DNA of 48,952 nt, taken from NCBI GenBank assembly GCA_030684815.1, contig JAUXXQ010000040.1, positions 1 through 48,952 on the forward strand. The letters are read 5' to 3'. Position 1 is the first letter of the stretch. The number at the start of each line of letters is the position of its first letter. Of this stretch, positions 36,974-41,771 are shown piece by piece. This DNA comes from Methylobacter sp. (GTDB taxonomy: Bacteria > Pseudomonadota > Gammaproteobacteria > Methylococcales > Methylomonadaceae). The notes below the pieces were generated by a model, which was not told where the DNA came from, did no database searches, and worked only from the letters and a program-made list of their open reading frames with translations. The position numbers and the translations under genes were made by a program.

Positions 36974-38434
36974 ATGAACGTAAAACCCGCCATTGCCGCA
37001 CTGGCTATTAGCCTCGCCCTGTTCCCGGCACAACAACAAGCCCTTGAGCTTAATAGCAAGATCGAATTGCCCGACATGGGTGATTCCTCCGGCACGCTCA
37101 TCACACCCGCCGAAGAAAAAGAATTTGGCGAAGCCTTTTTCCGCAGCCTGCACTCGCAAATTACCATTAATCAAGATGCCGAAATCCAGCAATACATCCA
37201 GACTATCGGCGAAAAACTGACTGCCAATAGCGATGCGCCCGGTAGCCCGTTCCATTTTTTTGTCGTGTTGGACAACAACATCAACGCGTTTGCCGGCCCC
37301 GGCGGCTATATCGGCGTCAATTCTGGCTTAATCTTAATCACCGAAGCCGAAAGCGAACTGGCCTCAGTCATGGCGCACGAAATTGCCCACGTCACCCAGC
37401 GCCACTTGTACCGCGCTTACGAAGCCGCCAGCCGTTTATCGATCCCCACCGCCGCCGCAACCTTGGCCGCGATTTTATTGGGCACGCAATCGCCAGAACT
37501 GGGCCAAGCCGCCATCATCGCCATACAAGCCGGCAGCCTGCAATTCCAAATTGACTTTACCCGCGAAAACGAAGCCGAAGCCGACCGTGTCGGCATGCAA
37601 ACCCTGGCAAGCTCACAGTACGACCCGCGCAGCATGCCCACCTTTTTTGAACGCCTACAGCAGTCCAGCCGCTATTATGGACAAAATACCCCTGAGTTTT
37701 TAAGGACCCACCCGGTCACGGCCTCACGTATTTCCGACACCCGAGGCCGCGCCGAAACCTATCCCTACAAACAATATCCCGACTCACTGGGCTACCAACT
37801 GACTAAAGCAAAACTTCGGGTACTGACCAGCCCAGACACCGCTGACACGCTTAAATATTTCCAATCCCGATCCACTCAGGGCACCACCGAACAACGCGCC
37901 GTTGCCCGCTACGGGCTTGGCTTACTGGCACAACATCAGCAAAAGTTCGAGACCGCAGAAAGCATTTTTCAACAGCTGAGCCAAGAATACCCCAATCAGG
38001 CGCAATACCTAAGCGCCCTTGCCCACACCGCATTGGATGCCAAAAATTACAACACCGCATTGGCCCGGTATAAAAAACTGACTGAACACTTCCCCGATAA
38101 CCAAGCCATTAAACTCGAATATATCAGCGCCTTACTGAAAACAGGAAGCGCCGAATCCGCACGGCAAAATTTGTTACTGCTAAAGCCAAAAAACCAGCAA
38201 CAACCCATTTATTGGCAACTGTTGGCACAAGTGTATAGCGACTTAAACAAACCCGCCGAATCCCACCGTTACCTTGCCGAATACTACTATAGAACCGGAC
38301 AAACCAAAGACGCCATCCTGCAAATACAACTGGCACAACAATCAAAAGACCTCAACTTCCAACTCTCATCCATCCTTAATGAGCGGCTAAATTTCTTTAT
38401 CAGTGAGGAAAAAGAAGCGAGGCGTAACCAATAA
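36974..38434 (+). CDS. bepA: BepA-like M48 metalloprotease with TPR repeats
   Basis: A 486-residue periplasmic zinc protease that acts in outer-membrane protein quality control. A signal peptide covers about residues 1-22. The zinc motif HEIAH (VMAHEIAHVTQRH) and the third ligand in ENEAEADRVG are intact. TPR repeats occupy the C-terminal half (about 300-460). Length matches E. coli BepA (487 aa). It starts 74 bp after the diguanylate cyclase gene. Confidence 0.94.
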   Translation: MNVKPAIAALAISLALFPAQQQALELNSKIELPDMGDSSGTLITPAEEKEFGEAFFRSLHSQITINQDAEIQQYIQTIGEKLTANSDAPGSPFHFFVVLDNNINAFAGPGGYIGVNSGLILITEAESELASVMAHEIAHVTQRHLYRAYEAASRLSIPTAAATLAAILLGTQSPELGQAAIIAIQAGSLQFQIDFTRENEAEADRVGMQTLASSQYDPRSMPTFFERLQQSSRYYGQNTPEFLRTHPVTASRISDTRGRAETYPYKQYPDSLGYQLTKAKLRVLTSPDTADTLKYFQSRSTQGTTEQRAVARYGLGLLAQHQQKFETAESIFQQLSQEYPNQAQYLSALAHTALDAKNYNTALARYKKLTEHFPDNQAIKLEYISALLKTGSAESARQNLLLLKPKNQQQPIYWQLLAQVYSDLNKPAESHRYLAEYYYRTGQTKDAILQIQLAQQSKDLNFQLSSILNERLNFFISEEKEARRNQ

Positions 38435-38581
38435 AACCTGAATACCAGCTGAATAGAAAGGCACTGCCTGCCAGGATTTTCGTGCATTAGAAACCGCTAA
38501 AGCTTTATAACACACTGTATTTATTATTTATTTTATATAATCTATTTTTTTTACCGCTAAACCCTATTTTTAAATAGACAA

Positions 38582-38597
38582 TGGACAGCCATTTGCA
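38582..38597 (+). promoter_or_regulatory. Candidate sigma54 promoter
   Basis: TGGACAGCCATTTGCA has the essential GG and GC dinucleotides separated by 10 bp and matches the -24/-12 consensus TGGCACG-N4-TTGCA at most positions. No ORF with a start codon follows within range. A transcript from here would run into the terminator at 38761-38782. No clear enhancer site was recognised upstream. Confidence 0.55.
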
Positions 38598-38607
38598 TAA
38601 AATTTGC

Positions 38608-38782
38608 GCCGACTTGATGGATTGGGTCCGGTTTAATCACCGACTAAGAGGGGGAATTAGTCTTTTTAGACTAGCTGATAATAATAACAAAATAAGTGAC
38701 ACTGCTTGGGTCGAGTTGTAACAATCACAACTAAATAATAACAATAACAGCACTCAACACGCCCGCTTTATGCGGGCTTTTT
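38608..38782 (+). ncRNA. Candidate sigma54-dependent small RNA with A-rich Hfq/Crc-like motifs
   Basis: This stretch of about 175 nt between bepA and the ZIP gene is bounded by a sigma54-type promoter and a terminator and has no credible ORF. It contains a stem TTAGTCT-loop-AGACTAG at about 38657-38675. Two single-stranded A-rich runs, at 38680-38695 (AATAATAACAAAATAA) and 38733-38749, match the AANAANAA pattern bound by Hfq/Crc. A small GTTGT/ACAAC stem lies between them. The layout resembles the CrcZ/CrcY sRNAs of pseudomonads, but homology is not shown. Confidence 0.5.
38761..38782 (+). terminator. Rho-independent terminator
   Basis: GCCCGC-TTTAT-GCGGGC followed by five T residues. It is more than 320 bp beyond the bepA stop, so it more plausibly ends the candidate small RNA. 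Confidence 0.8.
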
Positions 38783-38943
38783 ATTGCCTGAAATATCCCG
38801 CCCGACCGCTAAAACCCATCAAACAACCAACACAACAAAAGCCCCACCACACCCTTCTCCTTACAAACAAACCCAGCCTATGAGCTATTTGGTTATAATG
38901 CCCCGCGCACATTCCAAATCAAAAGCCGATACGGGTAATCCTC

Positions 38944-41163: not shown

Positions 41164-41243
41164 ATACAAGAGTGATGCTGTGACTGCTTATGTTATAGTT
41201 TCAAGCACCTATGACAGCAAACATATCTAAAAGGTTGTTAAAA

Positions 41244-41771
41244 ATGGCTTTGGCACAAGAAGATATTGATCAAATTCAGTGGCTCATCAAAAAAACGTTA
41301 TCGGAGCTGCCTGAGACATTAAATGCGAATGTGCGTTATGAGTTGGACTTGCGGGAAAGGACGATCCGCGTGGAAGAAGAATTGAAACATCAGCGGGAGT
41401 TGATGGTTGAAGGTTTCAAGCAAATGGAAAAGCGTTTTGAGCAAGTGGATAAGCGTTTTGAGCAAATAGAAAGGCGTTTTGAGCAGATAGATAAGCGTTT
41501 TGAACAGGTAGATAAGCGTTTTGAGCAGGTAGATAAGCGTTTTGAGCAGATGCAAATTGAAACGACGAAACGCTTTGAACAAATGGATAAACGTTTTGAG
41601 CAAATAGAAAGGCGTTTTGAGCAGGTGGATAAACGCTTTGAACAAATGCAAATTGAAACGACGAAGCGCTTTGATCAACTGACCACACGGATTGATCACT
41701 TTATGGTATGGTCATTTGCAACCACACTTACCGTTGGCGGGATTGTAATCGCTGCGATTAGGTTTTTGTAA
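41244..41771 (+). CDS. Coiled-coil protein with KRFEQ heptads and C-terminal TM
   Basis: A protein of about 175 residues. The N-terminal helix (about 1-45) is followed by eleven or so heptads of the form KRFEQxx/ERRFEQx (about 65-150), a single parallel coiled coil. A final TM helix follows (WSFATTLTVGGIVIAAIRFL). The heptads are nearly identical at DNA level (21-bp unit), so copy number may vary by slippage. The ATG at 41244 has AAAAGG 9 bp upstream; an ATG at 41211 is less likely. Architecture matches DUF1640/CCDC90-like membrane coiled coils. Function unknown. Confidence 0.8.
   Translation: MALAQEDIDQIQWLIKKTLSELPETLNANVRYELDLRERTIRVEEELKHQRELMVEGFKQMEKRFEQVDKRFEQIERRFEQIDKRFEQVDKRFEQVDKRFEQMQIETTKRFEQMDKRFEQIERRFEQVDKRFEQMQIETTKRFDQLTTRIDHFMVWSFATTLTVGGIVIAAIRFL

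Follow-up and report, generated by a model that had tools for sequence, protein, structure and literature searches.

A predicted small RNA family of the methanotrophic order Methylococcales carrying two conserved A-rich tracts of the Hfq-binding type

The window analyzed here is a stretch of 48,952 nucleotides from a genome of Methylobacter, and at its positions 38575-38786 a promoter, a body of about 176 nt and a terminator are arranged as a free-standing small-RNA locus. On the evidence of sequence comparison, this locus is an independent gene for a non-coding small RNA and represents a new RNA family of the Methylococcales. Its promoter-like box and intrinsic terminator are conserved, and the body between them combines four stems showing covariation with two conserved (AAY)n tracts that are single-stranded. 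The first-pass annotation of this DNA had taken the locus for a separate small RNA gene without coding function and with two motifs of the Hfq type. For this gammaproteobacterial methanotroph, the description is borne out by the conservation of the body, terminator, stems and tracts. The family is apparently undescribed before, as no natural trans-acting regulatory RNA of Methylococcales was found in the open-licence literature, an earlier report elsewhere being possible. In the accessible parts of this literature, a transcriptome paper on Methylomonas DH-1 names rnpB, ssrS, ffs and tmRNA (PMC6373157), the sRNA of another paper on Methylomonas DH-1 is synthetic (PMC7720504), and the sRNAs EcpR1 and alpha-r45 are those of Methylosinus sporium, an alphaproteobacterium and thus of another class (PMC12403871).

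Genomic locus and promoter

The RNA unit, on the plus strand, lies in the interval between the end of a bepA-like gene (38434) and the start of a gene for a ZIP-like transporter (38944). The former (36974-38434, plus strand, from the list of open reading frames) is a conserved neighbour lying outside the RNA, and by our reading it encodes a bepA-like M48 metalloprotease. By tblastn, 69 of the 90 homologous loci have a bepA-like gene directly upstream in the same orientation; in the other 21 none was found there. The downstream ZIP-like gene was present in only 3 of 50 loci, including the window's own, and the possibility that the RNA is a leader of the downstream gene was rejected for this reason. 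The RNA itself was assigned to positions 38609-38783 (plus strand) from homology, a covariance model and covariation; its start is predicted 6-8 nt past the -10 hexamer (about 38609-38611) and its end within the T run of the terminator. Two other observations were made in this window: a fragment of a group II intron (Rfam RF01999, 66.5 bits) is present on the minus strand at positions 1-93, where it is cut by the window edge, and a 186-aa open reading frame at 41211-41771 consists largely of FEQVDKRFEQ-type repeats, likely forming a coiled coil.

The promoter of this RNA was earlier proposed to be a sigma54-dependent (RpoN) site of the -24/-12 type. The string on which this proposal was based, TGGACAGCCATTTGCA, is indeed present at 38582-38597 (plus strand), but it is not a conserved sigma54 promoter and was judged to be a chance match. 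It has 3 mismatches to TGGCACNNNNNTTGCW, one more than was allowed in a search of the window that gave 33 sites, and even that number is no higher than the one seen in shuffled sequences (36.9). Within the 56-nt stretch upstream, GG-N10-GC is found in 6 of the 90 homologs, and near the window's position it occurs only in the window and in a distant homolog (L086, which came from the class-wide draw of genomes described below). L002, which at 95% identity is the closest relative, has AG in place of the GG, so that the -24/-12 box is lost there. A sigma54 promoter was therefore rejected, based on the 3 mismatches, the lack of any excess over shuffles and the presence near the window's place in only 2/90.

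In its stead, a sigma70-type box is conserved, which overlaps the sigma54-like string and consists of a -35 hexamer TAGACA (38575-38580) followed after 17 nt by a -10 hexamer TAAAAT (38598-38603), both on the plus strand. Boxes of this type, defined by 9 or more matches out of 12 and a spacing of 16-18 nt, were found in 83 of the 90 homologs; in 79 they occupy the homologous place, in four the best one lies elsewhere, and the remaining seven have no box reaching 9. Among 1800 shuffles, 267 contained such a box. The commonest form has TAGACA or TGGACA and then a TARAAT-like hexamer. Taken alone, the box in the window is unremarkable (3 found vs 2.9 expected). Judged from its conservation, the promoter of the RNA looks like an ordinary sigma70-type promoter.

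Further upstream, a consensus derived from 83 of the 90 upstream regions (the 7 without an anchor were left out) points to a box of the TAACA-N3-TGTATTTATTA type, located 49-67 nt upstream of the -35 hexamer. In the window it reads TAACACACTGTATTTATTA (38508-38526, plus strand), and its strict core TGTA[AT]TT[AG]TTA is present in 19/83 regions. In 16/83 regions TTTCG-N3-CGA occurs instead of this box or beside it. Both of these elements are possible regulator sites.

Secondary structure and coding potential

The structure of the RNA was examined in two alignments. From 28 homologs aligned with MAFFT without reference to structure, RNAalifold predicted the stems P1, P2 and P3, a long-range stem P4 and the terminator, and a covariance model was built from these 28 rows. 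The larger set consists of 90 homologs aligned to this model. It omits L001, a duplicate of the window, and L023, which a contig end truncates, and the 28-row alignment additionally omits L029; 60 homologous stretches were picked by hand among the covariance-model matches listed, and weak matches are under-represented. As all rows except the window were chosen by DNA similarity or model score and are mostly the better-scoring ones, and the alignment was fitted to the model, the counts of motifs and pairs based on 90 rows, here and below, lean towards the model.

Within this framework, P1 (GACTT/GGGTC, 38611-38628) carries ATGGA (38617-38621) in its loop and is a candidate for a CsrA-type hairpin. 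It is followed by P2 (CGGT/ACCG, 38629-38642), an unpaired purine element GAGGGGGA (38648-38655), which is either Shine-Dalgarno-like or a second GGA site, and P3 (TAGTC/GACTA, 38658-38673); P2 and P3 come from RNAalifold and covariation. After A-rich tract 1 (AATAATAACAAAA, 38680-38692) the long-range stem P4 (38703-38759) pairs 38703-38711 with 38752-38759 and encloses both a putative inner hairpin (38714-38719 with 38727-38732), which was read from the sequence and a single-sequence fold, and A-rich tract 2 (AATAATAACAATAACA, 38734-38749). The RNA ends in the intrinsic terminator GCCCGC-TTTAT-GCGGGC with the tail TTTTTATTG (38761-38786); all of these features are on the plus strand. The stem of the terminator (38761-38777) has six G+C pairs and is followed by five T, and all six pairs are standard in 90/90 rows, in agreement with the clean terminator noted earlier.

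A covariation search across Methylococcales, which had been suggested as a check, gave a strong result, with the four stems and the terminator holding in the 90 homologs. In the 90-row alignment changes on both sides were seen in 23 of 27 pairs, and the double-change cells numbered 289; shuffles gave 78.8 (sd 7.4) and structures with slid partners 26-48. As this alignment was fitted to the structure, the figure from the 28-row alignment, where double-sided changes occurred in 10 of 27 pairs, should be regarded as more neutral. For P4, both-side changes were observed at all seven modelled pairs in some of the 90 rows. The window RNA taken alone folds modestly better than its shuffles (z -1.92), and the corresponding values in relatives are -4.63 (L026), -1.58 (L022) and -0.73 (L028). 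The tail TTTTTATTG (38778-38786) is identical letter for letter in 69/90 homologs, and this conservation exceeds what termination alone would seem to need. Since the tail reads UUUUUAUUG in these 69 rows, the U run in them is only five long. The CAATAA present in the A-rich tracts would be a possible pairing partner for this tail.

The earlier statement that no open reading frame lies in this region requires a correction. An ORF of 46 aa (38581-38721) does span most of it, but its frame is not conserved, being interrupted by a stop in 20/20 other rows of the genus, with ATG at the corresponding place in only 1/20. When a closed frame starting 3-12 nt after the GGRGG element was sought, none was found in 75/90 rows (rows without the element included), and a frame of at least 12 codons was seen in 4/90. 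A protein-coding gene was therefore rejected, as no reading frame conserved across the homologs was found.

Distribution within Methylococcales

BLAST searches with the region detected the RNA in 22 of 23 genomes of the genus, own included, the one in which it is missing being 72% complete, and in 33 of all 61 genomes searched. With the covariance model, matches at E<=0.01 were obtained in 234/311 genomes of the order, in 184/228 of those of good quality and in 43/50 genera. However, as look-alikes outside the order reach E values of 1.1e-4 to 5e-3, a cut at 1e-5 is to be preferred, at which 197/311 genomes of the order match (hand count). Matching genomes mostly contain one match each and some two to five; in one draft genome (G010) two copies of the RNA are present, at C10:117377-117603 and C14:4384-4615. 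The cultured strain Methylobacter tundripaludum SV96 carries the RNA, and a pattern describing its 3' end was found in 38 stretches from Methylobacter, Methylovulum, Methyloglobulus and Methylococcaceae/Methylococcales.

An even draw of 369 genomes from the class yielded matches at E<=0.01 in 3 members of the order and in 7 others. The latter matches, however, should not be interpreted as showing that the RNA is more widely distributed, as they are limited to the terminator and A-rich stretches and lack the pair of ANGGA hairpin and GAGGRGG, and no bepA-like gene was found near any of the 7; none of them was for these reasons counted as a homolog. As far as tested, the RNA family appears to be confined to the order Methylococcales.

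A-rich tracts, Hfq and candidate targets

Runs of the (A-R-N)n type are what the distal face of Hfq binds. The two A-rich runs of this kind noted by the first-pass annotation are seen at 38680-38692 and 38734-38749, both being candidates for such binding from counts of the motif, and they are conserved far beyond the genus. At least two copies of AANAANAA are present in 86 of 90 RNAs, compared with 4.9% of dinucleotide shuffles, and outside the genus in 65 of 69 rows. The segment of tract 1 contains AANAANAA in 81/90 rows and that of tract 2 in 90/90, and AAYAAYAA occurs 2.3 times per RNA vs 0.08 times in shuffles. Hfq is encoded in the genome from which the window derives, and a search of 61 genomes, this one among them, detected it in 59.

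A tract of the same kind is found at the start of hfq itself. AATAATAA is present at the hfq ribosome-binding site in 19/19 loci of the genus that were read (from 23 genus genomes), an example being that around position 1483 of L031. By a loose test, the motif was scored as present in 28/30 loci across all genera read, and it is weak outside the genus. In E. coli, Hfq represses hfq via (ARN)3 at the ribosome-binding site, and overexpressed ChiX relieves this repression by its ARN repeat (PMC6348989). The motif at the Methylobacter gene suggests that Hfq in this genus autoregulates via its distal face in a similar manner.

Other candidate targets were sought in the window's own genome, where (AAY)4AA matches 19 times, at 14 places that include the RNA itself, and by our reading 5 of these 14 places are gene starts. 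The five genes are presumably a norC-like gene, a gene for a 120-aa secreted protein, a gene following a cheB-like gene, a desaturase-like gene and an unnamed ORF. As a Pfam search with the first 57-80 residues of 4 of the 5 genes gave only one weak MCPsignal match below the cut-off, these names are our own. A broader pattern, AATAAYAA..GGA..ATG, has 34 matches in this genome vs 2 for the reversed pattern, but this difference proves nothing, because the reversal also destroys the Shine-Dalgarno-ATG signal; ORFs were examined at 30 of the 34 loci, and 7 of these 30 lead to ORFs of less than 30 codons. The norC-like gene is present in 4/23 genomes of the genus, and the tract upstream of it has the long form in 2/4 loci and short AAC repeats in 4/4. 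In one of these loci (L174, 1500-1540), consecutive AAY triplets lying directly before the norC-like start encode a poly-Asn stretch ending the upstream ORF. The tract before the gene for the 120-aa secreted protein is kept in 3/7 loci (partial). Based on the motif at the hfq ribosome-binding site and the 5 of 14 places at gene starts, a network of Hfq distal-face sites is plausible.

CsrA-type sites

The loop of P1 contains ANGGA in 60 of the 90 rows (8.9% of shuffled loops do so), viz. in 21/21 rows of the genus and 39/69 others, and the variable position in these 60 rows is C in 33, G in 14, A in 10 and T in 3. The unpaired element downstream reads GG[AG]GG in 81/90 and GAGG[AG]GG in 66/90, the N of GAGGNGG in the latter being G in 35 and A in 31. 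A gene for CsrA is present in the window's own genome. Known layouts of CsrA targets include ANGGAN placed in the loop of a hairpin and the combination of a hairpin site with a second site at the Shine-Dalgarno sequence (PMC7652899), and in M. album BG8 csrA is lowered under methane or oxygen limitation (PMC9241951). The ANGGA hairpin together with the GGRGG element is thus a putative pair of sites resembling a CsrA dual site.

Comparison with CrcZ and other known RNAs

The kinship with CrcZ/CrcY that was earlier suggested is not upheld. Like the CrcZ/CrcY/CrcX RNAs of Pseudomonadaceae (RF01675), the RNA described here is non-coding and contains several A-rich (A-R-N) tracts of the Hfq distal-face kind. 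However, it differs from CrcZ, which is 407 nt long, has six A-rich stretches and is transcribed from an RpoN/CbrB promoter (PMC4063720; the RpoN dependence also in PMC6292655), by its length of about 176 nt, two tracts, sigma70-type promoter, different fold and bepA neighbour, and by the fact that no Crc was found. An Rfam scan of the region gave 11 matches at E<=10, none of them to CrcZ, and a search with the RF01675 model gave matches in 0/41 genomes, the control genomes being likewise without a match. The only Rfam match below E 0.01 was Trp_leader (E 0.0015), which was rejected, as its 27 bits compare with 41 needed and its best alignment is at the shared terminator; no Rfam family reaches its threshold. 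Crc was not found in the window's own genome, which is 99.25% complete and contains two Exo_endo_phos proteins, neither of them Crc. One scores 297.7 bits to exodeoxyribonuclease vs 104.4 to the Crc chain 4jg3 and passes two NCBIfam cut-offs for exodeoxyribonuclease III, and the other, at 501 aa, is too long and has only matches below the cut-off. As the tests of promoter type, of an Rfam match and of a Crc partner were all negative, the RNA was not filed as a member of the CrcZ family.

With class II Hfq-dependent sRNAs (ChiX, MgrR) the RNA shares ARN repeats and the stem of an intrinsic terminator, but it differs from them in having two tracts, one of them within a conserved long-range stem, in the absence of a known seed, in its 5' CsrA-type hairpin and in its U run of five. 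Its ANGGA hairpin loop and second GGA-type element are similar to those of CsrA/RsmA-binding sRNAs (CsrB and, as generally described, RsmY and McaS); unlike these, it has two such sites rather than many, with ANGGA in a single hairpin, ANGGA is not universal, and strong Hfq-type tracts are present. The autoregulatory site in E. coli hfq mRNA has an ARN repeat at the ribosome-binding site, as does Methylobacter hfq; however, the E. coli site is a cis site in an mRNA, whereas the methanotroph RNA is a free small RNA. The titration of Hfq by ChiX, which relieves hfq autoregulation, is described in PMC6348989.

Possible mode of action

The interpretation which we favour, with a probability of roughly 0.5, is that the RNA acts as an Hfq-binding titrator, possibly also binding CsrA. 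Each tract would occupy the majority of the (A-R-N) pockets on the distal face of one Hfq hexamer, and by holding Hfq the RNA would compete with mRNAs bearing such tracts at their ribosome-binding sites, for which hfq itself (with AATAATAAGGAG at this site) and the norC-like gene are candidates. Its action may then resemble that of CrcZ or ChiX, with no RpoN promoter involved and no Crc protein found. A single CsrA dimer may in addition be bound by the 5' ANGGA hairpin together with GAGGRGGA further downstream, which would give the RNA a second, or a controlling, function. Titration is favoured over base pairing because the tracts and the protein-type motifs are the best-kept unpaired parts of the RNA and no ordinary conserved seed was seen. 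Titrator RNAs should be abundant, and the two tracts found here, vs six of CrcZ, argue against a titrator, just as the absence of ANGGA in 30/90 rows argues against a role of CsrA.

A different and distinctly less probable interpretation is that this is a class II base-pairing sRNA of the ChiX/MgrR kind, in which the tracts would dock on Hfq and GAGG[AG]GGA would most likely pair with C/U-rich sites in mRNAs. The retention of GG[AG]GG in 81/90 rows is consistent with it, the exchange of G and A at the N of GAGGNGG would preserve the pairing with CCUCC via a G-U pair, and class II sRNAs bearing ARN repeats are known (PMC6348989; PMC6239178). However, a seed of purines only is unusual, no other conserved seed was seen, and the U run preceding an A is only five long in 69/90 tails. 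That the RNA is primarily one for binding CsrA, of the RsmY/CsrB or McaS type, with the hairpin and GAGGRGGA holding one dimer and the tracts merely giving stability via Hfq, is unlikely. The ANGGA loop with its variable N on a covarying stem, the second GGA-type element about 30 nt downstream, the presence of a CsrA gene and a layout like that of the glgC leader (PMC7652899) all speak for it, but there are two sites only, the first of which is missing in 30/90, in contrast to the two A-rich tracts kept in 86/90.

It is very improbable that the locus, rather than giving a trans-acting RNA, is a 3'UTR element of bepA, serves as leader to the gene that follows it or encodes a small protein. Although a bepA-like gene lies upstream in 69/90 loci, a 46-aa ORF is present and GAGGAGG resembles a ribosome-binding site, the unit has its own conserved promoter-like box and terminator, bepA was not found upstream in 21/90, the ZIP-like gene is present in 3/50, and with respect to a small protein, there is no closed frame in 75/90 and the window's frame is stopped in 20/20. 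Least credible of all is a true ortholog of CrcZ/CrcY/CrcX, driven by RpoN and relieving Hfq-Crc repression, as proposed in the first-pass annotation: the A-rich motifs and the -24/-12-like string of this one genome are in accord with it, but the lack of conservation of this string largely refutes it, and the failure to find Crc in the own genome, the lack of an Rfam CrcZ match and the differences in length, structure and neighbour gene are all contrary to it.

Significance

An RNA present across much of an order (197/311 genomes at E<=1e-5), with a covarying structure and with Hfq- and CsrA-type sites, provides a testable entry to post-transcriptional control in methane oxidisers, and an anatomy of the Hfq-titrator type is here seen in a genome that yielded no Crc. 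More speculatively, titration of Hfq and binding of CsrA may be combined in a bifunctional RNA used throughout the order, whose 5' half would hold a CsrA dimer and whose 3' half would hold Hfq via the two tracts, so that one RNA would adjust how much CsrA and how much Hfq is free (hfq autoregulation included) in concert with methanotrophic growth. If this tentative interpretation is correct, the RNA would tie together the two global post-transcriptional regulators and would be a counterpart of the CrcZ system that operates with neither Crc nor RpoN.
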